A stretch of DNA of 47,959 nucleotides from Candidatus Zixiibacteriota bacterium (GCA_021163775.1 JAGGTI010000066.1:1-47959); one strand, 5' to 3'; shown: positions 20,198 through 35,953, numbered from the stretch's first letter. Program-made: numbers and translations. Notes: generated by a model from the sequence alone, not told the origin.

Positions 20198-20343
20198 TTG
20201 ACTGAAATCAAATTGTCGCTTATACTGTTCTAAAGGGACAGGGTAAGTTCGTACGTCTTACTAACAAGCTATGTCCAGCCTGTGCTCACTATTTGTGATG
20301 AGCCTTGTCCCGGTCATCGACAATTGAGAAGAAAGGTCTTGGC

Positions 20344-23300
20344 ATGAGGAAACTCGTTGGCTTTGGATTGCTCGCCGTCTGTTGCGCTCTGGCTGTTATT
20401 GTGCTCTTGTCTCCCGGTGAGAAAAACCCGTGGGATCTTGATCCGGAGGAACAAGCCTACTACGAACACAAACGCTTCAACAAACTGCCCAAGCTGAAAC
20501 GACAGCCCTCAAACTACTTTTACGAACAGCGGGCCTATCCCTATGATCATATTCCAAACGAGCAGTATCGCGAAGCGGTGGCTGAAGCCAAGTTAAGTAA
20601 GCGGCGTCAGGTGGTATCGCTTGGTGTCGAGGCGGCAGTGTGGGAGTCGGCCGGACCGACGAATATTCCAGGGCGAATTACTTGTATCGATGTGCATCCC
20701 ACCGACCCGAACACTTTCTATGTCGGTTCTGCGTCGGGCGGTGTCTATAAGACTACTGATCTGGGAGCTACATGGACGATTGTCTTTGGAGAAGACGGCA
20801 CCTATTCAATGGGTGCACTGGCGGTTGATCCGAACGACGGCAATACGATCTGGGTTGGACCGGGCGAAGCGTCAGCTTCGATTGACTCATATGAGGCAGA
20901 CGGAATCTACAAGAGTACTGATGCCGGTCTGACCTGGAACAATATGCTTTTGTTGCCAACGGCACGTACTGGTAAGATTGTCGTTGATCCGACCAATTCA
21001 CTGCGAGTATTTGTCGCCATTCAGGGGCCGAGGTTTGCTCCCGACGGACCTGATCGGGGTTTGTATAGAACCGAGGACGGTGGGGTAAGCTGGACTCAGG
21101 TTCTCTATGTGGATGATGGAACCGGGTGTGTTGATGTAGCCATTCACCCGTCTACCGGAGTTGTGTTGGCCTCGACATGGTGGTTTACATCCGGGGCCAC
21201 CAGTAGGCTTTATAGATCCGCCAGCCACGGTGATGTTGGCAGTTGGAGCGAGATAACCAACGGCACGAGCGGCCTGCCCGCATCGAGCGATCTCGGTCGC
21301 ATCGGAGTCACCATTGATCCTTCGTCGAGCAGAGCCTACGCGCTCATCATCGATAACGACCAGAGACTGTATGGACTGTATCGTAGTGATGATCTGGGAG
21401 TCTCCTGGACTCAGACCAACGACGGGGATCTGGTTGATACCTTTGGTGGGTTTGGCTGGTATTTCGGTCAGGTACGCGTTGCCCCCGGCGATCCAAACAC
21501 TGTTTATTCTCTGGGCGTTACACTTTGGAAAACTACCGATGGCGGCAGTAACTGGTTCAACATAACGAACCAGACGCATGTCGATCATCATGCACTATAT
21601 ATCTCGCCCGGCGACAATGATGTTCTGTACGGTGGCTGTGACGGTGGTGTCAACTACTCCAGCAATGGTGGAGATTACTGGACGGTCTATCGTAACATGG
21701 ATAACACCCAGTTCTATGCCATCACTATGGATCACAACAACCCCGAGCGGCTCTATGGTGGAACCCAGGATAACGGGACCTTGCGAACTGTGACCGGCGC
21801 TACTGGTGACTGGACCCGTATCTATGGCGGCGATGGCTTTTACACTCTGGTCGATTACACCAACTCGGATATCATCTATGCCGAATCTCAGTTCGGCAAT
21901 CTTGTGAAATCGGTCGACTGTGGGAACAGTTTTACCTGGGCGCAGAATGGGATCGACCCAGGTGATGATGAGCCGCACGGTTGGAATACTCCAATTGAGA
22001 TGGATCAGAGTGATCCCACAGTACTCTACTATGGCACCGACCGGGTCTACAAGACCACCGATGGTGCCGAGAACTGGACCGCCATCAGTGGCAGTCTCAG
22101 TGGCAACTACCTGACGACTATTGCATCGGCTAAGAGTGATGGCCAGGTTGTATATGCCGCATCGCGGGTTGGGGCAGTATGGGTTACCACCGATGGTGGT
22201 TCCAACTGGATCGATGTTGGGGGGGCTCTCCCTGACAGGTGGGTCACTCGTCTTACGGTCGAACCTACCGATGCTTCGATCTGCTATGTGACGATATCCG
22301 GCTACCTGACTGATGGCGACAGGTTACCACATATCTGGCGCACCGACAACTACGGCGCTTCCTGGGCAGATATATCGAGCGATCTGCCGGACGCGCCTCT
22401 TAACGATGTGATTATCGATCCGCACGACAATCAAACACTTTATGTCGGTAGCGATGTTGGAGTCTATGTGACCGAAGATCTCGGTGGTTCCTGGTTGCCG
22501 CTGGGTACTGGTATGCCGATCACAGCGGTTGCCGATCTGGTCATGAACAGCCGCACGCGCAAACTGGTCGCTGGCACGCATGGCCGGTCAATGTTCTCAA
22601 CGATGGTGCCGTGTCCTGATGGCCCTGACAGCGACAGCGATGGCATCAACGACGCCTGCGATAACTGTCCCAATCTGGCAAACGCAGATCAACTCGATAT
22701 TGACAATGACGGTGTGGGCGATGTCTGCGATGACTGCGTTGACCCCGATGGCGACGGTTTCGGCAATCCGGGATATGTCTCGGCTACCTGTCCCGAAGAT
22801 AACTGTCCCGATATTTACAATCCCGATCAGGCGGATGCTGATTTAGATGGAATCGGTGACGCATGTGAACTGATTGCGGTAGCCGCGGAGTACGATACCG
22901 TAACCAGCTCCTGCCTGCAGTTGAATGTCAGTCATATGGGCAACTTTGGTAATAATTCCAGCACAGCGAGTCTGGACTACTGGAATCAGGGTGACTGTGA
23001 GTCAATCTATCTTTACGATGGCAGTCCGATTATTACACGTTATACCGGCAGTGAGTACATAGCCGACTATTTCATGCACGGCAATGATCGCTTCCGGCGA
23101 CCAATTGACGGTTTGCCTAAGTCGCCGACCACTACTACTGCGGACTACGAAATGTTTGGAAGCGGAACGTTTGCCACAAACGACGGCGCGCTGGCGCTTG
23201 AGATGACCTGGTACGCGCCAACACATCCCGATACCTGCGGGTTCGTTATTCAGTGTCTGAAAGTGTTCTCGTGGGATGGACAGACTCACGCTAACGTGGC

Positions 23301-24054
23301 GATTGGCAATGCTATCGACTGGGATATCCCTGCGAGTAGCGGAGCTGACAATGTTGGTGATTCCAGTAGCGATGCCAAACTGATATGTCTCAGCGGCACC
23401 GGAATTGGATGTGTCGATAACACTTCACGCTTCGGTGGTCAGAGTTTTCTCGGTATCACTCGTGCCAATGAGGACTGCGTAGATACTGCGGTTGGACCAG
23501 TGGGCGCCTATACGGGATTGAACGCTAATGATGTCTGGCCAACAGGCGGTTTTGTGGCTCAGGAGACATATGACAGAATGCAGCAGTCGGGCTATAGTCC
23601 GAATACGAATGTTGCCGACCAGTATTCGCTTATGTCATTTGTCGCCGGAGAGACTATCGGTCCTGATGACACTCTCAATATCTACTCGGCGCTCAGCACT
23701 GTTCGAACCGGAACTATTACCGATCTCGAGGCCAACATTCTGAAGGCGCGACAATGGTGTGTCGATCATTTAGCTCCAAGCTGTTCCGACCCTACCTGTT
23801 GTCAGGGCAGAGTTGGTGACGCGAACGGTGTTGGCGGTGATGAACCGACTATCGGTGATATCAGTGTCATGATCGACGCCAAGTTCATCACTGGTGCCTG
23901 TGACGGTATCATCGGTTGCCTGAAGGAAGCTGACATCAACCAGTCCGGTGGTGCTGATCCGACCTGTAACGATATAACTATCGGAGACATATCGATGCTG
24001 ATAGATTATTTGTTCATTACTGGTTCGAGTCTTGGCTTGGCTGATTGTCTCTGA
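20344..24054 (+). CDS. Secreted sortilin/BNR-type beta-propeller protein with TSP3 repeats, uncharacterised domain and dockerin-like module
   Basis: Start ATG 20344 (MRKLVGFGLLAVCCALAVIVLLS). Many YKTTDGG.NW / Asp-box-like motifs; TSP3 motifs DSDSDGINDACDNCPNLANADQLDIDNDGVGDVCDDC; dockerin-like end. Confidence 0.88.
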   Translation: MRKLVGFGLLAVCCALAVIVLLSPGEKNPWDLDPEEQAYYEHKRFNKLPKLKRQPSNYFYEQRAYPYDHIPNEQYREAVAEAKLSKRRQVVSLGVEAAVWESAGPTNIPGRITCIDVHPTDPNTFYVGSASGGVYKTTDLGATWTIVFGEDGTYSMGALAVDPNDGNTIWVGPGEASASIDSYEADGIYKSTDAGLTWNNMLLLPTARTGKIVVDPTNSLRVFVAIQGPRFAPDGPDRGLYRTEDGGVSWTQVLYVDDGTGCVDVAIHPSTGVVLASTWWFTSGATSRLYRSASHGDVGSWSEITNGTSGLPASSDLGRIGVTIDPSSSRAYALIIDNDQRLYGLYRSDDLGVSWTQTNDGDLVDTFGGFGWYFGQVRVAPGDPNTVYSLGVTLWKTTDGGSNWFNITNQTHVDHHALYISPGDNDVLYGGCDGGVNYSSNGGDYWTVYRNMDNTQFYAITMDHNNPERLYGGTQDNGTLRTVTGATGDWTRIYGGDGFYTLVDYTNSDIIYAESQFGNLVKSVDCGNSFTWAQNGIDPGDDEPHGWNTPIEMDQSDPTVLYYGTDRVYKTTDGAENWTAISGSLSGNYLTTIASAKSDGQVVYAASRVGAVWVTTDGGSNWIDVGGALPDRWVTRLTVEPTDASICYVTISGYLTDGDRLPHIWRTDNYGASWADISSDLPDAPLNDVIIDPHDNQTLYVGSDVGVYVTEDLGGSWLPLGTGMPITAVADLVMNSRTRKLVAGTHGRSMFSTMVPCPDGPDSDSDGINDACDNCPNLANADQLDIDNDGVGDVCDDCVDPDGDGFGNPGYVSATCPEDNCPDIYNPDQADADLDGIGDACELIAVAAEYDTVTSSCLQLNVSHMGNFGNNSSTASLDYWNQGDCESIYLYDGSPIITRYTGSEYIADYFMHGNDRFRRPIDGLPKSPTTTTADYEMFGSGTFATNDGALALEMTWYAPTHPDTCGFVIQCLKVFSWDGQTHANVAIGNAIDWDIPASSGADNVGDSSSDAKLICLSGTGIGCVDNTSRFGGQSFLGITRANEDCVDTAVGPVGAYTGLNANDVWPTGGFVAQETYDRMQQSGYSPNTNVADQYSLMSFVAGETIGPDDTLNIYSALSTVRTGTITDLEANILKARQWCVDHLAPSCSDPTCCQGRVGDANGVGGDEPTIGDISVMIDAKFITGACDGIIGCLKEADINQSGGADPTCNDITIGDISMLIDYLFITGSSLGLADCL
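23797..24051 (+). other. Dockerin-like C-terminal module, copy D
   Basis: CCQGRVGDANGVGGDEPTIGDISVMIDAKFITGACDGIIGCLKEADINQSGGADPTCNDITIGDISMLIDYLFITGSSLGLADC. Confidence 0.8.
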
Positions 24055-24189: not shown

Positions 24190-24306
24190 TAACCATTATT
24201 TTCCGAAAAGATTCATACTACTGCTTGATTTGCGGCTCAATTTACCGAAAATTATGAATAGTTGGCAGATGTTGCCGCCTGGCGGTTCTGCCTTGGAGTG
24301 ATACCC

Positions 24307-25644
24307 ATGCGCCTCGACGTATATTTGGTTAAAAACAATCTGGCCAGCCAGGAGCAGGTCCAGGAAGCGATAGATTACCAGCGGACACATGGTGGCCGTT
24401 TGGAAATTCATCTGTTCCGTTTCGGTTATGTTAGTGAATCTGACTTGGTTACTGCCCTGGCCGAGCAGTTTCGCTGTCCTGGTATCGCTCTATCGGGATT
24501 GGACATTTCTGAGGCCGCGCTCGGGCTTTTGTCATCGGAAGTGGTTCTGGACTATCAGGTGATTCCATTCCATTTTGATCAGTCAGCCGGGATAGTCAAA
24601 ATTGTCTGCGAGAATCCACGTCAGGGGTTTTTGCGAGAAAACCTGGTTCGTTTGTTGCCCAATATAACTGTCGAGTTGTATATAGCGCTTGGTACTACGT
24701 TACGCCTCGCGATCCTGAAACACTACCGACAATCATTACCGGATCAATGTGAAACGGAGAACGACTCAGCCGACGAAATGATTCCTCAGTCATCATTGAA
24801 TCTCGAATTGGGTACTGAGCAGACAAGCCCCCCAGACGCATCGGAACCGATAACCAACAAAGAATGCCGGTTATTGCTATTAGATGTAGCTGAAGGTGAT
24901 GTCCCCACTTTGGGCCAGATCCTGCAATACCAGGGATATTTGGTTACGGTAGTGCATACCACTGAAGATTTCGTCGAATCAACCTTGAGGTATAAACCTC
25001 ATATTCGGGTTATTCAGGTGCCCGGTGACAGGTCGACTGTGAGTGCAATTCTGAGGCAATTGACCGATGGTAACCATTCGATTGCAGACCATGCCACGTT
25101 CTTGATAATCGACAATCCCGAGAAGCGGGAGATCGGCGATTTGCTCCGGGCCGGGTTTGAGGATATCATAGATTCCAAGAATGTATTAGATCTGTTGATG
25201 ATAAAGCTCAGGCGAACTCGGGATCGTATCAGTCGTGAACGTCGTCGTCGCCATGATATTCTCCAGCAATTGGGAACCCACGGTTCGCTCAATGATATGA
25301 ATGTTATCGATCTCTTGCAGGCGATGGGCCCGACTGGGAAAACATCTCGGCTCAGTGTTACCGGTCAGGGTCAGCAACTTACAATTTATCTCAACAAGGG
25401 TCAGATCACCTATGCCGAATGCGACGAGGTAGTCGGCGCCGAGGCTGTCTACTGTGCGCTCGGCTGGAGGAAGGGAGTCTGGAGCCTGGAGCCTGTTACG
25501 TCCGAAGATATTCCCGAACCAAATACCAGCGATTCCAACGACGCTATTCTGCTGGAAGGTTGTCGCCGTCTCGATGAAGAAGTCCACGATACGTCAACGT
25601 TGTTGGTCGATGACCTGCTGTCGACATTGGATCAGTTCAGCTAA
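24307..25644 (+). CDS. MshEN (GspE N-terminal)-like domain + degenerate receiver-like domain + DUF4388 protein
   Basis: MRLDVYLVKNNLASQEQVQEAIDYQR...LVTALAEQF resembles the GspE/MshE N-terminal domain; ECRLLLLDVAEGDVPTLGQILQYQGYLVTVVHTTEDFVESTLRYKPHIRVIQVPG is REC-like; DUF4388-like end NVIDLLQAMGPTGKTSRLSVTGQGQQLTIYLNKGQITYAECDEVVGAEAVYCALGWRKGVWSL. Confidence 0.75.
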   Translation: MRLDVYLVKNNLASQEQVQEAIDYQRTHGGRLEIHLFRFGYVSESDLVTALAEQFRCPGIALSGLDISEAALGLLSSEVVLDYQVIPFHFDQSAGIVKIVCENPRQGFLRENLVRLLPNITVELYIALGTTLRLAILKHYRQSLPDQCETENDSADEMIPQSSLNLELGTEQTSPPDASEPITNKECRLLLLDVAEGDVPTLGQILQYQGYLVTVVHTTEDFVESTLRYKPHIRVIQVPGDRSTVSAILRQLTDGNHSIADHATFLIIDNPEKREIGDLLRAGFEDIIDSKNVLDLLMIKLRRTRDRISRERRRRHDILQQLGTHGSLNDMNVIDLLQAMGPTGKTSRLSVTGQGQQLTIYLNKGQITYAECDEVVGAEAVYCALGWRKGVWSLEPVTSEDIPEPNTSDSNDAILLEGCRRLDEEVHDTSTLLVDDLLSTLDQFS

Positions 25645-26323
25645 CGGTGAGTTTGAAGCCGATCCCATGAATACTTGAAATTTCGATGTGGTCATCATCT
25701 TTGAGATGTTTTCTCAATTTTGAAATGAAGACGTCCATACTCCGGGCGTTGAAGTAACTCTCATCACCCCATATTTCGCGAAGGGCAAGGTTTCTTTCCA
25801 GAGTTTGGTTCTGGTGCAGGCATAGAAGTCGGAGCAGTTCAGTTTCTTTGTGAGTGAGCCGTTGTTCCCGGTCATTGATCTTGAGTACGCGTGTCAGCGA
25901 ATCAAACGAATAGGCACCAACCTCAAACTGAGTGCGGGTGTCTTCTGCCGGATTTCCGCTACTTCTTCGCAGTACTGCCCCGATACGCAACAATAGTTCT
26001 TCAACCGAGAATGGTTTGGTGATATAGTCATCACACCCGATCTGAAAACCCTCGATCTTGTCGGCCTTGAGTGATTTGGCGGTCAGGAAGATCAGCGGTA
26101 TGTCGGTGTCCCGGCATCGGACTTCGCGTGCAAAGGCAAAGCCATCCATTATAGGCATCATGACGTCGACCAAACAGAGAGCGAAAGTGTTTTTGCCAAA
26201 CTCGACCAGGCCCGCTTCGCCATTGACACAGAGGGTGACTTCATAGCCGTTCATCTGCAAATGCTCCTGTACGACCAGGCCCAGGTTGGGGTCATCCTCC
26301 AATAACAAAATGGCCTTACTCAT
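25637..26323 (-). CDS. OmpR-family DNA-binding response regulator
   Basis: ILLLEDDPNLGLVVQEHLQMNGYEVT...LCLVDVMMPIMDGFAFAREVR...FLTAKS...GCDDYITKPFSVEELLLRI, plus C-terminal winged helix. Confidence 0.95.
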   Translation of the reverse strand: MSKAILLLEDDPNLGLVVQEHLQMNGYEVTLCVNGEAGLVEFGKNTFALCLVDVMMPIMDGFAFAREVRCRDTDIPLIFLTAKSLKADKIEGFQIGCDDYITKPFSVEELLLRIGAVLRRSSGNPAEDTRTQFEVGAYSFDSLTRVLKINDREQRLTHKETELLRLLCLHQNQTLERNLALREIWGDESYFNARSMDVFISKLRKHLKDDDHIEISSIHGIGFKLTVS

Positions 26324-28020
26324 GAGTCACCCTCCGACTCGTTGATATCGTGATTTGACATTAGCGGAAACAATACGACCATTCGCGTACCTCGGCCGAG
26401 TTTGCTGTCAACTGTGATATTGCCCCCATGGGCCTTAATCATGAGATAGACGTAGCTGAGGCCCAGCCCAAAACCTTTGACATCGTGGATGTTGCCGTGA
26501 GTCACTCGAAAGTATTTGTCGAAAACTTGTCGTGCGTTCTCCGGTGAAAGCCCCAGGCCGCGATCCTCGACAACAATTTTTAAACCGTTGGGGGTATCGT
26601 CCGTGCTCACTGTTATTTCCGGTGTATCCAGGGAGTACTTGTTGGCGTTATCCAGCAGATTGTAGATGATGCCGGTCAGGTGGATTTCATCGGCCGGTAT
26701 GATCGGCCGGCGACTGTTAAGTTGACACTCTATCCGGCCACCACGTTTTTGAACCTGAAGGTCGATACTGTCGACCGCGTTACTGATAACATCATGGACA
26801 TTGATTGCCGTTAGTTTCAGTTTGCCCCGGGTTTCTTCGAGCGCGGCCATCTGAAGAATCTTATCGACTTGGTGACGCATCCTCCGGTTTTCATCCTGAA
26901 TCATGTGTGAAAACTTAGCCACCCGGTCGGTGTCGGAGATAACATCCTCTCTGAGAATAGCCTCGCACGCCAGTGCCACCGTCGAAATTGGGGTTTTGAA
27001 TTCGTGGGTCATATTGTTCACAAAGTCGACCATTTGGTGTGATGTTCGTCTCTGAGCCACAAGCGTTCGGACAGTATAAGTGAAGCCGAATACAACCACC
27101 AACATAAACAGGGTTGTCGCGGCCAGCATCGGTCCTATCTGTTTAAACAGATAAACCCCTCGTTCAGGAAAATAGATTGCCAGACTGGCCGGAACGGCAA
27201 GGAAATCATTGGGGAAGAGTGCGGCTTGAAATTCAGACTCGCGCAGTTTGTCCTCGAAACTCCGCGGTTGTTGTAAGTGCAGTGAACTATCAGATTCGAG
27301 CACGACTCCGTAGACTGGTTCCAGCTCAATTCCGTATTTGTCCAGAGCGTCACGGATAAGCGAATCAAGGCGGGTACTGTCAACTCGTTCCTCAATTGGT
27401 AGATTTTGGTCGGTAACCAGTCTATCCATAACTCGTGATATGATATTTATACGAGTACTGTCAATCATCTCTCTAAAGTCGGAGCTGTCATCGCCTTCAA
27501 CCTGACTGCGCAAGACTGTGCCGGTGCTGTCCATTGTGTAGCGAACCAGCAGGAAAGTCGAATCGGAATCACCAGTCTCGGTGTCGAACGACACAGTGTC
27601 GATTCGTTCAACATAGGTTTCGTGCGATTTAGTAAGTAGCATCGGTGTATCGCAAAACACCCCGATCATTTGAGGGCGGGATTGTGCGAAGTATTGAATA
27701 TCGGCTTGCATCATTCTTTGTGGAAAACCGTGATCGGTCAGGGATACGCTGTCCAGATAGGATATTTCTGTCGGCGAGCCATGGGCGGCTATCACAATCT
27801 CGGTGGCATCGCCCACAACCCGAAGGGTGGCACTTACCGTCTCGGCTGTTTCGAGATGTTGTGCGACTGAACTCAGGGCGGCCTGCACGTTACGTCGAAG
27901 TGATGCTTCCTTCGATGCAAAGGCGTCAGCTAACAATGACACCTGCAGGGCCACCAACCCCGTCAGAGAGATCACCATTACAGCAACGACCAGTCGAACT
28001 GTTTTCTGTGTCATAGCCAT
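26320..28020 (-). CDS. Membrane sensor histidine kinase with periplasmic sensor region, HisKA and HATPase_c
   Basis: FVNNMTHEFKTPISTVALACEAIL (H-box), IIYNLLDNANKYS (N-box), VEDRGLGLSPE, GFGLGLSYVYLMIKAHGG (G-boxes); 4-nt overlap with the response regulator. The ORF track extends to 28071, but starts at 28020/28014 avoid overlapping the TTAAC array. Confidence 0.92.
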   Translation of the reverse strand: MAMTQKTVRLVVAVMVISLTGLVALQVSLLADAFASKEASLRRNVQAALSSVAQHLETAETVSATLRVVGDATEIVIAAHGSPTEISYLDSVSLTDHGFPQRMMQADIQYFAQSRPQMIGVFCDTPMLLTKSHETYVERIDTVSFDTETGDSDSTFLLVRYTMDSTGTVLRSQVEGDDSSDFREMIDSTRINIISRVMDRLVTDQNLPIEERVDSTRLDSLIRDALDKYGIELEPVYGVVLESDSSLHLQQPRSFEDKLRESEFQAALFPNDFLAVPASLAIYFPERGVYLFKQIGPMLAATTLFMLVVVFGFTYTVRTLVAQRRTSHQMVDFVNNMTHEFKTPISTVALACEAILREDVISDTDRVAKFSHMIQDENRRMRHQVDKILQMAALEETRGKLKLTAINVHDVISNAVDSIDLQVQKRGGRIECQLNSRRPIIPADEIHLTGIIYNLLDNANKYSLDTPEITVSTDDTPNGLKIVVEDRGLGLSPENARQVFDKYFRVTHGNIHDVKGFGLGLSYVYLMIKAHGGNITVDSKLGRGTRMVVLFPLMSNHDINESEGDS

Positions 28021-28064
28021 ACCAATGATAGTATACGGCAAACGCAGGTCAGTAAACACCTCAA

Positions 28065-28099
28065 TTAACATTTGTTAACAAACCATAACGAACCTTAAC
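28065..28099. promoter_or_regulatory. Four-copy (T/A)TAAC direct-repeat array at 10-bp period; candidate binding site for an OmpR/PhoB-type regulator
   Basis: ttaacatttg ttaacaaacc ataacgaacc ttaac, starting at 28065, 28075, 28085 and 28095, between the divergent kinase and PDZ genes. Confidence 0.6.
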
Positions 28100-28160
28100 T
28101 GCGGCGGCGAGAACCGGTTGGTTATCATACCGTACAGAGAATCAACTATAGGAGATTACG

Positions 28161-28982
28161 ATGATAACAAGCAGACAAACAATAACACACTTTCGTATTG
28201 GGATAACAGTCTTTCTGTTCGGGGTGATTCTTACCTCGGTGCCGTTAGTAGCTGATGAAACAGCGCAACTGAATGGCGTCGATATGGATCGATTCGAAAT
28301 CCCGGAACTAGGAGCCGTGATAGTTTCCAGTCACGACGGTCTCAGGGTAATTGAAATCACACCGGCAGGCGGACGCTTAGAGAAATACCGAGTAGTTGAT
28401 CTTCAGCCCGGTGATGTCATTATGGCGGCTAATGGTCAACGGCTTGAATCGGTATCGACTTTGCGCGAATTGTTCAATTCGCTGGAAGTTGGTGATGAAG
28501 TAAAATTTGCTGTGCGGCGATCAAATTCTCCCAGAGTAGTCGGGTTCGAGATTGGCACTGAGGGAGACCGGCTCGCGGCCAAAGAGTTGGCCGCTACCTA
28601 TGTTGAGATTAAAAACGATTTAGAATCCAGTGAACCCGGCAGGGACGGGCCTGTTATGATGAAATTTATGGGTGGTGAGGGTGTTGTTCCCTGCATAGAA
28701 CTGGCGGCGATGCTTGACGATAGTGATGGACAAATAAGCGTAATGGAGATCATCGAACTGCCACCCCAGTTGGCACCGCCGATTAAGTTGCGCGTCGGGG
28801 ATATCCTGACTGCCCTTCAGGGTCAGTCAATCACCAAAGTGGCCGAGTTTGTCGATCAATTTGACCAGATACCTGCCGGCAGTAAAGTTACTCTTAGCCT
28901 GATTCGTGACAACTCCGAAACTGAACTTACATTCGAGAAGCCGAAACAATCCGGCAACCGTGTGAAGATCATAAAAAGATAG
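28161..28982 (+). CDS. Exported protein with two PDZ domains and no protease domain
   Basis: Signal peptide; VVDLQPGDVIMAANGQRLESVSTLRELFNSLEVGDEVKFAVRR and LRVGDILTALQGQSITKVAEFVDQFDQIPAGSKVTLSLIRD. Confidence 0.85.
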   Translation: MITSRQTITHFRIGITVFLFGVILTSVPLVADETAQLNGVDMDRFEIPELGAVIVSSHDGLRVIEITPAGGRLEKYRVVDLQPGDVIMAANGQRLESVSTLRELFNSLEVGDEVKFAVRRSNSPRVVGFEIGTEGDRLAAKELAATYVEIKNDLESSEPGRDGPVMMKFMGGEGVVPCIELAAMLDDSDGQISVMEIIELPPQLAPPIKLRVGDILTALQGQSITKVAEFVDQFDQIPAGSKVTLSLIRDNSETELTFEKPKQSGNRVKIIKR

Positions 28983-28997
28983 ACAGGATGTACTAAC

Positions 28998-30500
28998 GTG
29001 TCCCAGATTAAATGCTACATTGTTGCCTGTGTATTACTTGGATTGCTCATACCCATACAGTCAATGGCGCAGGGTTCGGGTTTTTTCAATCAGCGCGATG
29101 ATCAATATCGCTTGTTAGGTCTCAAGCGTGCTAAGGAGAATTACGAAATAGCACGCCAGGAACTTGAACGACAACAGGAATTGTTTGAGTCCGAGATGAT
29201 TTCTTTCGCAGAGCTGAATCAGGCCCGGCAGGTTTACTCGGAAGCCGAAGTTAACTACCAGCAGTCGCTATTGGCTGTCCTGTTTGAGGAACAGTATATT
29301 TCGGTGACAAAAGCTATCAAGTACCAGGCCAAGGATGGATGCAAACATGTACGCATCACACTGGCCAATACCTCCGGTGGGACTGAGGAGTTTCGACAAT
29401 TGGTTGGCAGTGACGATCAACTGTTTCGTTCGCTACAGCCCGATGTCACCCATAATATCTATATCAGCCTGCTCAATAGTGACGATGCTATCATCAGTCA
29501 ACCATATGAGGCCAAGATCGATCAGCTACGTTACGGTGAACCACAAGAGATAGATTTCACGTTACTTCAAGACCTCGATGCTGTGACGGTTTTTCTGGTC
29601 TATGCCAACGGCAACCAGCGCACGATGAAGATATTCCTGCAAAAAGATGTCACCGCCAATCGGGTGTTGGTACAATCAGAACAGTTTTCTCAGGAAGTTG
29701 ATTTGGGAGAATCGGCCAATTTTGATCTCACCCTGGAACTGTTCAGTGGTACTGATAATACATTTTCTCTCGAAGTTGTTAATTTGCCACCGACGATGAC
29801 CAGAGTGTTTAAGAACTTCTCGGGCTCGGCTCGACTTAGCCAGCTAAAGTTCACTGAAAGCAGTCGCACGAAACGAGCTTCGCTTGAAGTGTCTCTGCCC
29901 GATCGGCAGACTGATGATGTTGTTATGGACGCCGCTATGCCGTTCTACGTTCTGATCGTTCCGCGTGAGAAACTACGTGAACTTCCACAACTGACCTCCC
30001 GCACGTGGACTGAAGCGGAACTGGAAGATCTTGATGTTGGCTATGTGCGACTGGAGTTGATACCGCGCGGTATCGGTAAGATTCTGGTTCGTTCTCAGCA
30101 ATTGTATTATTCGATTCAAGCAGGTGAGTCGGTGGCTATGTTTATGGATATTGTCAACGAAGGCAGTCGCCGTCTCGATAACACCGAAGTGCGCGCTGAT
30201 ATACCATTGGGCTGGACCCGGGAAATCACACCCGGCTCAATTCCGGCTATCGCTATAGGCGAGGAGACCAGGGTTGATCTTGCCTTCACGCCACCCGAGG
30301 ACATATCTCCGGGCAAGTACGAAGTACGCCTGCGCACCAGTGCGACATCTAATAGTCAGCCGGTCAACGGTTTGGACAAGACGGTTACGATTGAAGTACG
30401 TCCCGAAACAAACGTAGTCGGTACGATTGTTATTGTTCTGGCCTTGATTGGGTTGGTTGGTGGCATTGTTGTTTTCGGCGTTAGACTATCAAGAAAATAA
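28998..30500 (+). CDS. Exported membrane-anchored protein: coiled-coil hairpin region, NEW3-like domain, C-terminal TM segment
   Basis: Signal peptide (IACVLLGLLIPIQSMAQ); RAKENYEIARQELERQQELFESEMISFAELNQARQVYSEAEVNYQQS coiled coil; AGESVAMFMDIVNEGSRRLDNTEVRADIPLGWTREITPGSIPAIAIGEETRVDLAFTPPEDISPGKYEVRL is NEW3-like; terminal TM VVGTIVIVLALIGLVGGIVVFGV. Confidence 0.75.
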   Translation: MSQIKCYIVACVLLGLLIPIQSMAQGSGFFNQRDDQYRLLGLKRAKENYEIARQELERQQELFESEMISFAELNQARQVYSEAEVNYQQSLLAVLFEEQYISVTKAIKYQAKDGCKHVRITLANTSGGTEEFRQLVGSDDQLFRSLQPDVTHNIYISLLNSDDAIISQPYEAKIDQLRYGEPQEIDFTLLQDLDAVTVFLVYANGNQRTMKIFLQKDVTANRVLVQSEQFSQEVDLGESANFDLTLELFSGTDNTFSLEVVNLPPTMTRVFKNFSGSARLSQLKFTESSRTKRASLEVSLPDRQTDDVVMDAAMPFYVLIVPREKLRELPQLTSRTWTEAELEDLDVGYVRLELIPRGIGKILVRSQQLYYSIQAGESVAMFMDIVNEGSRRLDNTEVRADIPLGWTREITPGSIPAIAIGEETRVDLAFTPPEDISPGKYEVRLRTSATSNSQPVNGLDKTVTIEVRPETNVVGTIVIVLALIGLVGGIVVFGVRLSRK

Positions 30501-30530
30501 GAACGTATTGAAACATATGTGAGGTATTAA

Positions 30531-31307
30531 GTGAATACTCCTCTGAACACCAAACAGCCCCCTCTGGAAGCTATTGGCCTGACCAAACGCTACGAAGATG
30601 GTGTTCTTGCGCTTGATAATGTATCGTTCGCTATTGAGGCTGGTCAGCTTTTTGCTATTTTGGGTGGCAACGGTGCCGGCAAGACCACTACCATCAACCT
30701 ATTTTTGAATTTATTGGAGCCGACTCAGGGGGAAGCGAGAGTCTGCGGAATTCCATCCCATAAGCAACCGTTACTCGCCAAAGAGAAAGTTGCTTTTGTG
30801 TCGGAAAACGTAACACTGTACCCAAATTTTACAGCACTTCAGAATCTGGACTTTTTCGCTCGATTGGGGAATAAAACCGATTACACTGCCGATGATTACC
30901 ACCGGGTGTTGGATCGTGTTGGTCTTGAGCGTGAGTTTCATCGCGGGAAGCTCAGGGATTTCTCCAAAGGTATGCGCCAGAAGTGTGGTATTGCCATTGC
31001 CATTCTCAAAGATGCGCCAGCGATTCTATTGGATGAACCGACCGCCGGTCTTGACCCGAAAGCCGGTCGTGATTTTATGAAGTTGCTCGAGGAACTCCGT
31101 TCTGAAGGTAAGGCGATCCTGATGTCAACCCATGATATCTTCCGAGCCAGGGAAGTCGCCGATGTGGTCGCTATTATGGATAAGGGCAGGATGATTATGC
31201 AGACCAAAGCGGCCGACCTGGCAGGTCGTGATCTTGAGGCTATATACATGCAATACATGGCAGGACACAACGGCGATGCGTCACCGTCGGAGACAAGTTA
31301 TGTTTAA
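30531..31307 (+). CDS. ABC transporter ATP-binding protein
   Basis: Walker A GGNGAGKTTT, signature-like FSKGMRQKCGIA, Walker B AILLDEPTAGLDP, H-loop STHD. Confidence 0.96.
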   Translation: MNTPLNTKQPPLEAIGLTKRYEDGVLALDNVSFAIEAGQLFAILGGNGAGKTTTINLFLNLLEPTQGEARVCGIPSHKQPLLAKEKVAFVSENVTLYPNFTALQNLDFFARLGNKTDYTADDYHRVLDRVGLEREFHRGKLRDFSKGMRQKCGIAIAILKDAPAILLDEPTAGLDPKAGRDFMKLLEELRSEGKAILMSTHDIFRAREVADVVAIMDKGRMIMQTKAADLAGRDLEAIYMQYMAGHNGDASPSETSYV

Positions 31308-32718
31308 GACTATCGTTGGTAAAGAAATCCGTGACCTGATCGGTTCCACCAAGTTTGCTATTACATTTGGTGCCTGTGCTGTGTTGATCATTGTTGCGTT
31401 CTATGCGGGAGCGGCTCGGTATAATCTCCATAGGTCGCAGTATGAGGCTTCGGTCAGCCAAAATCTGCGACAATTAGAAAGCAACACCGATTGGAACGCA
31501 GTTGGCGAAGCCAAAGTTTTTCTGCCGCCGCAGGCGTTGGCGTCGCTGGTGTCGGGAGTCTCGAACGATATCGGTCGCACCGCCGTGGTGCGGGGGAGAG
31601 GCGAACCGGTGACTCAGGATAGTCGTTATAACGAAGATCCAATCTACGCAGTTTTTCGCTTTCTTGATCTGGAGTTCATTTTCAAAGTGATTCTTTCGTT
31701 GTTTGCAATCCTGTTGGGGTACGATGCGATCAGTGGCGAGAAGGAACGTGGTACCCTGAGATTGTCATTCGCCAACGCAGTACCACGGGCGACTTACATA
31801 TTGGGGAAGATGGTCGGATCGGTGATTGTTCTTGGGGTGACGCTGGCGATTGCCACCGCGGTCGGTGTCCTTCTGTTGCCATTGATGGGTGTGCCGCTGA
31901 CAGGATCTGATTGGGCCAGGCTTGGCTTGATCCTTATCACCGGCTATCTCTACTTTGGTGTTTTCCTGACTATGTCGGTTTGTGTGTCGGCGATGACACA
32001 CCGATCCTCGAATTCTTTTCTCGTTCTTTTGGTCGTTTGGATTATCAGTGTCTTGATTATTCCAAAAGTTTCGGTGCTGATGGCGGCGCGGACAGTCGAT
32101 GTGCCGTCCGTGGATGAGATTGCTTCACAGAAAGCAACTTATGGTTTGCAGTTGCGCGAAGAATACCTTGATGGTTTGGCCAATATGTCAATCAGTATGA
32201 GCGAACAGGATACCGATCCGATCCAGAAACTCAATGCCTATATGGATTCACTCCATGGGGTTCGTGACTCTAAAATGATGGAGTTGTCCGGTCGCCTGAA
32301 CGAGGACCGTCGCAACCGCCAACAGACTCAGAGCAGTTTAGCTTTAGCTCTGGCACGTCTGTCGCCCACCGCTTCGCTCTCTTTAGCGATCTCCAATCTG
32401 GCGGGAACTTCGGTTAGTCTCAAAGACCAGTTTTATCGGGAGTCGCTTGCCTACAGCAGTGTGTTCGGTGATTTCAAAAAAGAAAAAACAGGGTTCAACT
32501 CAGGTGCCGCGGTGCGGATTATTACGCATGATTCCGATGCCGAGCCGGAGGAACCGGAGCGGATCGACCCAAGAGAGATGCCTGCTTTTGAATATACACC
32601 GTCTGAACTTGCGGCGGCAGTTGACGCTTCCGCGGTTGACATAGGTTTGCTCGCGGTTTTCAACCTGGTTTTTTTCGCGGGAGCCTTTGTCGCTTTTGCA
32701 CGGTACGATGTAAGATAA
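31300..32718 (+). CDS. ABC-2-type permease (first of a tandem paralogous pair)
   Basis: MFKTIVGKEIRDLIGSTKFAITFG; GYDAISGEKERGTLRLSFANAVPRATYILGKMVGS; multiple TMs. Its ATG overlaps the ATPase stop by 8 nt. Confidence 0.9.
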   Translation: MFKTIVGKEIRDLIGSTKFAITFGACAVLIIVAFYAGAARYNLHRSQYEASVSQNLRQLESNTDWNAVGEAKVFLPPQALASLVSGVSNDIGRTAVVRGRGEPVTQDSRYNEDPIYAVFRFLDLEFIFKVILSLFAILLGYDAISGEKERGTLRLSFANAVPRATYILGKMVGSVIVLGVTLAIATAVGVLLLPLMGVPLTGSDWARLGLILITGYLYFGVFLTMSVCVSAMTHRSSNSFLVLLVVWIISVLIIPKVSVLMAARTVDVPSVDEIASQKATYGLQLREEYLDGLANMSISMSEQDTDPIQKLNAYMDSLHGVRDSKMMELSGRLNEDRRNRQQTQSSLALALARLSPTASLSLAISNLAGTSVSLKDQFYRESLAYSSVFGDFKKEKTGFNSGAAVRIITHDSDAEPEEPERIDPREMPAFEYTPSELAAAVDASAVDIGLLAVFNLVFFAGAFVAFARYDVR

Positions 32719-32740
32719 TGCTTAGTCTTGGAGAATAGTT

Positions 32741-34165
32741 ATGTTAGGCATCCTGATTACAAAGGAACTGAGAGCGATCATCCAAAGTCCGAAGTTTGTT
32801 GGTTCGTTTGCGATCTGTTCCATCCTTATCCTGCTTTCTGTGTATACAGGCGTGCGGGAATACAAGGCCGCCGTCTCACAATATGAGACAGCCACTTCGC
32901 TGGTCAGTCAGGAACTGTGCGAAGCTACCAGTTGGGCTATGATGGATACGAAAAGCTATCGTGAACCGGATCCTATGCAGATATTTGTTTCCGGTCTCAG
33001 CAACGATCTCGGACGATGGTCATCTATCTCAAGCGATAAAGGTGTCAAACTGCGGCACAGTGTCTATTCTGATGATCCCATATTTGCTGTCTTTCGTTTT
33101 GTCGATTTTGCTTTCATTGTCATGTTTGTCTTGTCGCTGATAGCTATCCAGTTCACTTACGATGCGGTCAACGGTGAGCGTGAAAGCGGTACCCTTAAAC
33201 TGGTTTTTGCCAATGCCGTTCCGCGTGCCAGGTATCTTATAGCTAAATGTATTGGTTCGTGGCTCGGTTTGGCGATTCCGTTGGGGATTCCGATTCTGTT
33301 GAGCCTGCTTTTGGTTATCGTCATGGGTGTGCCGCTGACCTCAGACCACTGGATCAAGATTGTGATGTTGATTGCGCTTTCGCTTTTGCTGTTTACATTC
33401 TTCATTATTCTCGGTGTGTTTGTGTCCACGGTCACACGACGGTCCTCGGTGTCGTTTCTGACGGCGCTTTTGATCTGGGTGTTGTTTGTTATGATTATCC
33501 CACGCGCCGGTGTGATGGCGGCTGGAGGTCTGGTCGACGCTCCACGAGTTGCCGAGATAGAGTCCCGGCGCGATGCCTTTGCCGCTGAGAAGTGGGCCAC
33601 CATGTTCGAGGAGATGTCCTCGTTGGATTGGGATTCCGGCAAGGTGACCGCCGATCAGCAATGGGATTCGATTGAAACAGCCGTGCGACAGGAAGTTGAT
33701 CAATATGAAGCTCGATTGTTGGAAGATCTCCGCCAGAAGAAAATCAATCAGCAACAAGTTGCATGGGGTTTATCACGGTTGTCACCGGCTTCTGCTTATC
33801 AACTCGCCGCTATGACTCTGGCGGAAACCGATACCGAAGCCAAGCGGCGCAACGAAGATGCGATGGCAACTTACCGCAATCAGTTTAACGAATACGCCAA
33901 TGCCAAACAGGCTGAAGCTGGTGATACCCCGGGCATCATGATATCCGTGATGATGGACTCCGATGGCACCTCAAGTCTAAAGGTTGACGCCGATCGTGAC
34001 AACGCCGGACTGGATGTCTCCGATGTTCCCCGATTTAGTCCGCCACATATTGGACTGGCGGAAGCTATCGCACCGATGATTCTTGATTTTGGACTGATAG
34101 GGTTCTACATCCTACTGGCCTTTTCAGGAGCCTTTGTCGCTTTCGTGAGGTATGATGTAAGATAG
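32741..34165 (+). CDS. ABC-2-type permease (second paralog)
   Basis: MLGILITKELRAIIQSPKFVGSFA; TYDAVNGERESGTLKLVFANAVPRARYLIAKCIGS; collinear with the preceding permease, including the terminal GAFVAF(V/A)RYDVR. Confidence 0.9.
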   Translation: MLGILITKELRAIIQSPKFVGSFAICSILILLSVYTGVREYKAAVSQYETATSLVSQELCEATSWAMMDTKSYREPDPMQIFVSGLSNDLGRWSSISSDKGVKLRHSVYSDDPIFAVFRFVDFAFIVMFVLSLIAIQFTYDAVNGERESGTLKLVFANAVPRARYLIAKCIGSWLGLAIPLGIPILLSLLLVIVMGVPLTSDHWIKIVMLIALSLLLFTFFIILGVFVSTVTRRSSVSFLTALLIWVLFVMIIPRAGVMAAGGLVDAPRVAEIESRRDAFAAEKWATMFEEMSSLDWDSGKVTADQQWDSIETAVRQEVDQYEARLLEDLRQKKINQQQVAWGLSRLSPASAYQLAAMTLAETDTEAKRRNEDAMATYRNQFNEYANAKQAEAGDTPGIMISVMMDSDGTSSLKVDADRDNAGLDVSDVPRFSPPHIGLAEAIAPMILDFGLIGFYILLAFSGAFVAFVRYDVR

Positions 34166-34495: not shown

Positions 34496-35953
34496 ATGTA
34501 CCGTAATCTATTGTTTGCGACCGCTCTCTCTCTATTCATATTCGCTTCCTTGCCCGGCGTATCGGGTGCCGCGGTGGAACGAGAAATATCTGTCGTTCGG
34601 GCCGATAATCGTATGAATTTGCCGACAGCGACCGCCATTGAAACTGAGTGTGTGCTATACCGTCATTTTATCGAGGACTCAATACTGGGTTACAGTTCTA
34701 CGTACGAATCAGGGCAGAGAACCGTAACCTATTTTGATCCGGTAGCCTGTGAGCCATCGCCTTACCCATTTGAGATTACCGGATTTTCTTTCACGATGCT
34801 CGACCCCAACGATTCCTTTGACCCGCGCCTATTCAAGTGGCCTGTTCAAATCGATGTAGTGGTATTCGATCTGTATTCGGGCACCGACAGCTGTCTCGGA
34901 CCCGGGGTGGAACTCTATCGCCAGTCGGTGGAATGCGATTCGGCTACCTTCTGCCGACCGGCAGTCGGGCGAGTTGATTTTCTAACAGTGCTGTGTGTTG
35001 AGCGACCCTTCTACATCGGAATCGAATACACCGATCCGGTGCCTGGCCTGTTGCCCTCGATTATGTTCGATATCAGCTCCACTCCGGAGCTGTGTTACCT
35101 GTTTCAATATTATGGAGGTCAGTGGTACGGCTGGTACTATTTTTGGCCCGAACCCCGGCCCGGTTTTCCGTTCTTTTGGGTTCACGGCGAGACCGTGTCA
35201 TTGACCTGTCTACCGGACGCAGATTCTGACGGGGTCCCGGACGCTATGGATAATTGTCCGACAATAACCAACCCTTCTCAGGAGGATACCAACCAAAACG
35301 GTGTAGGTGATGCCTGCGATGATGATGATGATGGCGATGGTATTCTTGATGGTACGGATAATTGCCAATTTGTTGTCAATCCCGGTCAGGCAGACGCTGA
35401 CTTGGATGGCTACGGCGATGTTTGTGACGATGATGATGATAATGACAGTGTTGTTGATGTTGACGATAATTGTCCGTTCACCGATAATCTGAACCAACTC
35501 GACAGTGATGCCGATGGATTAGGTGATGCCTGTGACAACTGTCCCGATCATGCGAATTTGGAGCAATACGATAATGACGGTGATGGGTTGGGTGATGTCT
35601 GCGACGATGATGACGACGATGATACTATTCTCGACCCGTCAGATAATTGCCCGCTGGTCTGGAATCCGGGACAGGAAGATGCCGATTCCGATGGAGTCGG
35701 TGATGCTTGCTCGTGCGTGGGAACGACCGGCAATGTCAATTGCGATCCGCTGGACGAAGTGACCATTGGCGATGTTGCTACGCTGATTGACCACTTGTTC
35801 ATTTCGGGATCGGATTTGTGCTCGATTGAGGAAGCAGATGCCAATCAGTCGGGCGGTGCTATTCCGACCTATGATGACATTACTATAAGTGACATTTCGT
35901 TACTGATTGATCACTTATTCATATCCGGCGTACCGTTGCCGGATTGTCTGTGA
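34496..35953 (+). CDS. Secreted TSP3-repeat protein with divergent dockerin-like C-terminus
   Basis: Signal peptide; DSDGVPDAMDNCPTITNPSQEDTNQNGVGDACDDDDDGDGILDGTDNC TSP3 run; end EVTIGDVATLIDHLFISG...DITISDISLLIDHLFISGVPLPDC. Confidence 0.87.
   Translation: MYRNLLFATALSLFIFASLPGVSGAAVEREISVVRADNRMNLPTATAIETECVLYRHFIEDSILGYSSTYESGQRTVTYFDPVACEPSPYPFEITGFSFTMLDPNDSFDPRLFKWPVQIDVVVFDLYSGTDSCLGPGVELYRQSVECDSATFCRPAVGRVDFLTVLCVERPFYIGIEYTDPVPGLLPSIMFDISSTPELCYLFQYYGGQWYGWYYFWPEPRPGFPFFWVHGETVSLTCLPDADSDGVPDAMDNCPTITNPSQEDTNQNGVGDACDDDDDGDGILDGTDNCQFVVNPGQADADLDGYGDVCDDDDDNDSVVDVDDNCPFTDNLNQLDSDADGLGDACDNCPDHANLEQYDNDGDGLGDVCDDDDDDDTILDPSDNCPLVWNPGQEDADSDGVGDACSCVGTTGNVNCDPLDEVTIGDVATLIDHLFISGSDLCSIEEADANQSGGAIPTYDDITISDISLLIDHLFISGVPLPDCL
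35714..35950 (+). other. Dockerin-like C-terminal module, copy E (divergent, fewer cysteines)
   Basis: CVGTTGNVNCDPLDEVTIGDVATLIDHLFISGSDLCSIEEADANQSGGAIPTYDDITISDISLLIDHLFISGVPLPDC. Confidence 0.75.

Follow-up and report, generated by a model that had tools for sequence, protein, structure and literature searches.

A conserved module of a two-component system, PDZ and NEW3-hairpin proteins and an ABC-2 transporter, with a predicted regulator-specific operator

Judging from sequence, the divergent two-component system (TCS) and the adjoining PDZ-NEW3-ATPase-permease1-permease2 operon are one conserved module of seven genes, normally present in single copy, which recurs across many mostly uncultured bacterial phyla. 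The module lies in the window analyzed here, a 47,959-nucleotide stretch of DNA from Candidatus Zixiibacteriota, and carries a predicted operator between its divergent halves. We tentatively read it as a dedicated, envelope-signal-controlled ABC-2 exporter with a TolC-docking inverted adaptor, a reading to which we give slightly less than an even chance. The earlier note had spoken of an 'envelope stress-sensing and export module', which conservation, the operator and the regulator swaps described below support, while export itself is what we infer. It had also held that the combination was not described, and we found no characterised matching system in the open-access literature searched, Pfam or NCBIfam, and nothing relevant on NEW3 plus an ABC transporter among open-access papers. 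The seven genes and their domains, located with Pfam, and the putative control elements between them are as follows.

25637-26323, minus strand: OmpR-type response regulator, RprY-like (Pfam Response_reg 8.9e-23 and Trans_reg_C 1.7e-16)
26320-28020, minus strand: histidine kinase with a TM helix, a periplasmic sensor of ~265 residues, a second TM helix and HisKA-HATPase (Pfam HisKA/HATPase_c)
28030-28035, minus strand: TATACT, a putative -10 box for the promoter of the kinase-regulator pair, immediately before the kinase ATG (from sequence)
28065-28099, plus strand: candidate operator, four 10-bp direct repeats TTAACATTTG TTAACAAACC ATAACGAACC TTAAC
28123-28128, plus strand: TATCAT, a putative -10 box for the PDZ-exporter operon, lying 22 bp past the fourth repeat (TTAACT)
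28161-28982, plus strand: exported protein carrying a pair of PDZ domains (PDZ_2 in Pfam, 8.7e-16, over two stretches)
28998-30500, plus strand: C-terminally anchored hairpin/NEW3 protein (Pfam NPCBM_assoc/NEW3, E 1.2e-14)
30531-31307, plus strand: ABC ATPase, Walker A GGNGAGKTT, Walker B LLDEP (ABC_tran 1.6e-27)
31297-32718, plus strand: ABC-2 permease 1 (ABC2_membrane_2, 3.5e-29; weak DUF3526)
32741-34165, plus strand: ABC-2 permease 2 (ABC2_membrane_2 and DUF3526, 3e-28)

This inventory agrees with the gene content proposed earlier, including the kinase/OmpR pair in the opposite direction, the ABC ATPase with two paralogous ABC-2 permeases (37% identical) and the ATPase/permease overlap, which amounts to 11 bp with permease 1 starting at ATG 31297. 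The plus-strand PDZ-PDZ protein indeed has no protease domain in Pfam: its 273 residues contain PDZ domains only, no membrane anchor was seen in it, and assignment to the HtrA/Deg proteases was rejected, as it lacks a trypsin-like protease domain ahead of the PDZ domains. One-PDZ versions exist elsewhere (for example, at loci L156 and L162). Two starts needed correction, that of permease 1 (ATG 31297) and that of the kinase. The orthologue alignment and the sequence place the kinase start at ~28014-28020, not at 28071 as in the listed ORF, whose extra N-terminus is a read-through of the operator repeats; orthologous kinase ORFs show the same artefact, with N-termini such as MLRNVK or MLRNVN that are only translated repeats. 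The kinase start codon thereby falls ~10 bp from the putative -10 box (28014-28035), with a similar distance in most orthologues, which suggests that the kinase transcript is leaderless or nearly so.

A close homologue of the NEW3 protein is present in 23 of 61 relatives and, with split genes counted, in 40 of the 133 genomes of the phylum; it also occurs in 22 of 297 sampled genomes of the Balneola phylum, always as one copy. Across the named genomes of several phyla that were scanned, homologues are 48-72% identical, and the carriers comprise Zixibacteria, KSB1, Calditrichota, Ignavibacteria/Melioribacter, Balneola/Rhodothermia, Krumholzibacteriota and Acidobacteriota, with a deltaproteobacterium and gammaproteobacterial MAGs added by the same scan. 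The same arrangement, RR-HK facing away from PDZ-NEW3-ATP-P1-P2, returns nearly unchanged from locus to locus, and this degree of conservation greatly exceeds chance. Among 64 loci made non-redundant at 75% NEW3-protein identity, a filter that is the only kinship correction in these counts, the NEW3-ATPase-permease1-permease2 core was found in all 64, PDZ in 50 and the TCS in 46; beyond these, no real neighbour family was seen at more than 5 of the 64 (one antisense-ORF family reaches 7). The PDZ gene stands directly upstream of NEW3 in 50 of the 58 non-redundant loci with at least 1 kb of upstream sequence. A regulator is adjacent in 43 of the 49 loci that extend far enough upstream: 35 RprXY-type, five other TCS, two BlaI/BlaR1 and one ECF sigma with a putative anti-sigma, and two further ECF loci lie on shorter contigs (regulator domains were assigned by Pfam; the putative anti-sigma, which has no Pfam match, was named by position). 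PDZ and regulator tend to occur or be missing together (both in 40 loci, neither in 4, the regulator alone in 3 and PDZ alone in 2), and both permeases stay together wherever contig extent permits. The conserved order, the lack of any other common neighbour family, the single copy and the retention of both permeases support a dedicated system, whereas some Rhodothermales and proteobacterial loci, in which the core stands without PDZ or regulator, weaken this reading. Across phyla, then, the PDZ, NEW3 and TCS genes are kept with the transporter, in line with their grouping in the earlier note.

The array between the kinase and the PDZ gene, four 10-bp repeats with the element TTAACA (28065-28099), had been missed in that note. 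Tandem half-sites of 10 bp are in keeping with an OmpR-type regulator. In 36/36 RprXY-type loci the array matches 17-20 of the 20 half-site letters, while loci with swapped regulators score at the same position 12 and 12 (BlaI/BlaR1), 14-15 (ECF) and 13-15 (other TCS), which is background, shuffled sequences reaching 11-15 of 20. It was also found on three contigs that end before the kinase and at L103, where the kinase is truncated and was filed by script as 'other TCS'. In all 12 genomes scanned whole, the four-repeat pattern (shorter two-repeat sites are outside its scope) has exactly one 0-mismatch site, always the operator, and the remaining matches, 2-3 letters off, are shifted registers of the array or chance. 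The -10-like box 22 bp after the fourth repeat has T at its first position in 35/36 loci and A at its second in 33/36, and a kinase-side TATA-like box lies about 30-34 bp from the array in most orthologous loci; scanning the region for promoters and terminators gave no signal over background. Loss of the operator where the regulator is swapped and the fixed spacing to the -10-like box further support a dedicated system, and the location of the array next to the -35 fits activation. Regulator-specific tandem direct repeats beside a promoter, as belong to an operon directly controlled by an OmpR-type regulator, are thus present as a predicted site. Since the operator is unique in each genome and regulator-specific, we find it strongly suggested that the TCS is dedicated to the PDZ-exporter operon and activates it. 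That the TCS and PDZ genes are merely accidental neighbours of the transporter would fit their absence from a minority of loci, but the conserved order across phyla and a regulator-specific, genome-unique operator contradict this explanation, which we rejected as exceedingly improbable. The predicted operator is in effect a sensor-to-machine switch readable directly in the DNA, so that signal and cargo could be tested with one reporter. Balneola-type loci, which have a different TCS, carry their own conserved sequence GATTTAACATCCTTAACAAA at the operator position (L143, L145-L147, L151, L153, L155 and L159, near 9100).

The best NCBIfam model for the regulator is by a wide margin RprY, with 302.6 bits against 175 for the next best; this is under the curated cut-off of 370, and we therefore call it RprY-like rather than RprY. 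RprXY, known from Bacteroides and Porphyromonas, is a stress-response regulator, and the B. fragilis pair confers low-level tetracycline resistance in E. coli (PMC3646045). Besides the sub-cut-off score, the present system differs in adjoining a putative ABC exporter, a position not reported for RprXY in the literature examined. No HAMP domain was found in the histidine kinase, and a PDB search with the AlphaFold model of its sensor (pTM 0.64) gave no confident match (best E 0.26), so that the fold offers no clue to the signal. The systems that take the place of this TCS, BlaI/BlaR1, an ECF sigma with a likely anti-sigma and a different TCS, are again membrane-signalling systems, and these swaps before one machine offer a clean natural experiment on regulator replacement.

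The NEW3 protein is laid out as a signal peptide, an alpha-hairpin (38-64/70-97), beta domains including NEW3 (374-448) and the terminal TM helix noticed earlier (473-499). Its AlphaFold model (47 sequences, pLDDT 84, pTM 0.49), in which the domain arrangement is uncertain, starts the hairpin directly after the signal peptide and puts the predicted tip at residues 65-69; a fold search returned generic Ig-like and integrin matches only, with low TM-scores. In a NEW3-protein profile the hairpin region matches HlyD-family adaptors, identified as such by Pfam, and weakly matches solved adaptors including MexJ. By these matches the hairpin, called adaptor-like in the earlier note, is related to those of HlyD/RND adaptors. 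Its tip motif R58-L62-S69 is conserved (R in 80, L in 76 and S/T in 74 of 83 sequences), unlike residues 64-66 and 70-71, which vary, and is the same as the R-x3-L-x6-S/T TolC-docking motif. Mutation of that motif impairs TolC binding in MacA, AcrA and HlyD (PMC3391258), and some TolC-binding adaptors do without it (PMC4446572). Although the protein has the alpha-hairpin with an RLS-type tip motif, we rejected membership of the adaptor family: its anchor is C-terminal, and no lipoyl/barrel-sandwich and beta-barrel domains flank the hairpin. Pfam gave no match to HlyD_D23, HlyD_3 or Biotin_lipoyl in it, in which the true adaptors matched by the profile differ. At most, it may work like an adaptor. 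TolC-family ORFs were found on five other contigs of the genome and none in the cluster. The identity of the tip motif with the TolC-binding motif, the hairpin matches and the TolC-family ORFs elsewhere support export, whereas the lack of a TolC gene in the cluster and of a lipoyl/barrel-sandwich domain in the NEW3 protein weakens it.

In the exporter that we tentatively propose, the membrane kinase would sense a periplasmic signal and phosphorylate the RprY-like regulator, which would bind the four repeats between the divergent promoters as tandem dimers and activate the PDZ-NEW3-ATPase-permease1-permease2 operon, and probably its own. An ATPase dimer would power a permease1-permease2 heterodimer, next to which the NEW3 protein would be anchored by its C-terminal helix, with the beta domains and then the N-terminal hairpin extending outwards to the outer membrane. 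There the hairpin's R-L-S/T tip would dock a TolC-family channel encoded elsewhere, making the NEW3 protein an adaptor of inverted topology. The soluble PDZ protein would most likely recognise C-termini, either those of the cargo or those of an envelope protein that has been damaged, and deliver or report it; the cargo would probably be an envelope-damaging amphiphile or peptide. The data argue moderately for tripartite export through an inverted adaptor, and hint weakly at the PDZ protein as a cargo or damage receptor and at an envelope-active cargo. MacAB-TolC and HlyBD-TolC share the alpha-hairpin with the R-x3-L-x6-S/T tip motif (PMC3391258), but have another ABC permease class and an adaptor anchored at the opposite end, and TolC docking here is predicted.

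The transporter has an ABC ATPase with intact Walker motifs and ABC2_membrane-type permeases, as expected of an ABC-2 transporter, and its relatives bring up the main rival. For permease 2, NosY is the one solved relative that scores above chance (E 1.7e-8), which also weakens the export reading, and the solved relatives of the ATPase are the ABCA family, nearest in the PDB, and NosF. A NosDFY-, FtsEX- or GldAFG-like machine, whose ABC-2 core would spend ATP on moving or loading the periplasmic NEW3/hairpin protein without TolC export, would do envelope repair, metal or enzyme assembly, or peptidoglycan work, with the hairpin as an oligomerisation or protein-contact device. The NosY complex is generally regarded as passing on mechanical or chaperone work rather than exporting, and nosDFY has the order periplasmic protein-ATPase-permease, which is shared here; a weak GldF similarity, the missing lipoyl domain and the lack of a nearby TolC gene point the same way. 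Such a machine leaves unexplained the tip motif and the likeness of the hairpin to HlyD/RND adaptors, and would have two different permeases in place of a NosY homodimer, and we consider it rather unlikely. NosD is a beta-helix protein, whereas the NEW3 protein consists of Ig-like/NEW3 domains and a hairpin, and no nos genes are among the recurring neighbours; NosDFY membership was therefore rejected. Membership of the GldAFG gliding-motility transporter was likewise rejected: the similarity is weak, with scores far under the curated cut-offs (GldA 132 of 402.6 bits, GldF 26 of 288.5 bits), and a GldG-type auxiliary domain is missing.

The E. coli YbhG-YbhFSR cluster consists of a HlyD-type adaptor, an ABC ATPase and two ABC-2 permeases, and its parts list is the same as that found here. 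An ordinary drug or toxicant efflux pump of this or the MacAB kind, with the NEW3 protein replacing the adaptor and the TCS detecting the drug, would also be in keeping with the tetracycline resistance conferred by RprXY and with tetracycline export by YbhFSR (PMC7190983). We regard it as improbable: the core, which is single-copy and deeply conserved (about 50-70% identity between phyla), and its dedicated regulator suggest a specific native cargo, drug pumps are not known to include a PDZ protein, and the permeases belong to a different family (ABC2_membrane_2/DUF3526). The present cluster further differs from YbhG-YbhFSR in its C-terminally anchored adaptor candidate with NEW3/beta domains and no lipoyl domain, and in its PDZ protein and dedicated TCS with an operator. 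The ABCA-like ATPase could instead belong to a machine that carries lipids or glycolipids to the outer membrane, in which the NEW3 protein would form the bridge and the PDZ protein would be accessory. DevBCA-TolC, a cyanobacterial pump for glycolipids with an adaptor that requires TolC tips (PMC4446572), offers an analogy. Similarity between ATPases says little about substrate and there are no conserved lipid-biosynthesis neighbours, and we give this explanation little chance.

Returning to the exporter with an inverted adaptor, it is conceivable, if doubtful, that it forms a separate class of trans-envelope ABC-2 exporter, defined by a TolC bridge made of a C-terminally anchored, inverted NEW3 protein with the adaptor hairpin outside its classical fold, a PDZ protein as receptor for cargo or stress, and membrane-signal regulators that can be exchanged. 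TolC-docking hairpins would then be transferable, able to occur outside the classical adaptor fold. The module itself is an envelope system that is undescribed and widely distributed, mostly in uncultured phyla but also in the isolate Balneola sp. EhC07, which has the swapped TCS.

Several minor observations concern individual loci and flanking genes. At L043:8358-10481 (a MAG), NEW3 and ATPase share one open frame, the ATPase then being frameshifted; this read-through would fit a cytoplasmic C-terminus of the NEW3 protein. L027:125-1618 encodes a NEW3-protein paralogue, 27% identical and followed by its own ABC ATPase, which points to a wider NEW3-ABC family. L166 (3142-11881, a deltaproteobacterial MAG) lacks PDZ, and its single ATPase is followed by two permease pairs (P1-P2-P1-P2). 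In the single-contig genome G028:C1 the NEW3 gene is interrupted after roughly codon 100 (L047/L048, at 2.02 Mb and 2.75 Mb), the halves and their flanking genes lying 0.73 Mb apart through inversion or misassembly, and the gene is intact in the sister genome G073. In the window, an MshEN and DUF4388 protein (24262-25644) abuts the response regulator and is kept with the module in the sister genome only. The secreted proteins at 20305-24054 and 34496-35953 have similar C-terminal dockerin-like repeats (IGDIS.LIDYLFITG); the latter gave no dockerin match in the Pfam scan and has six thrombospondin type 3 stretches.
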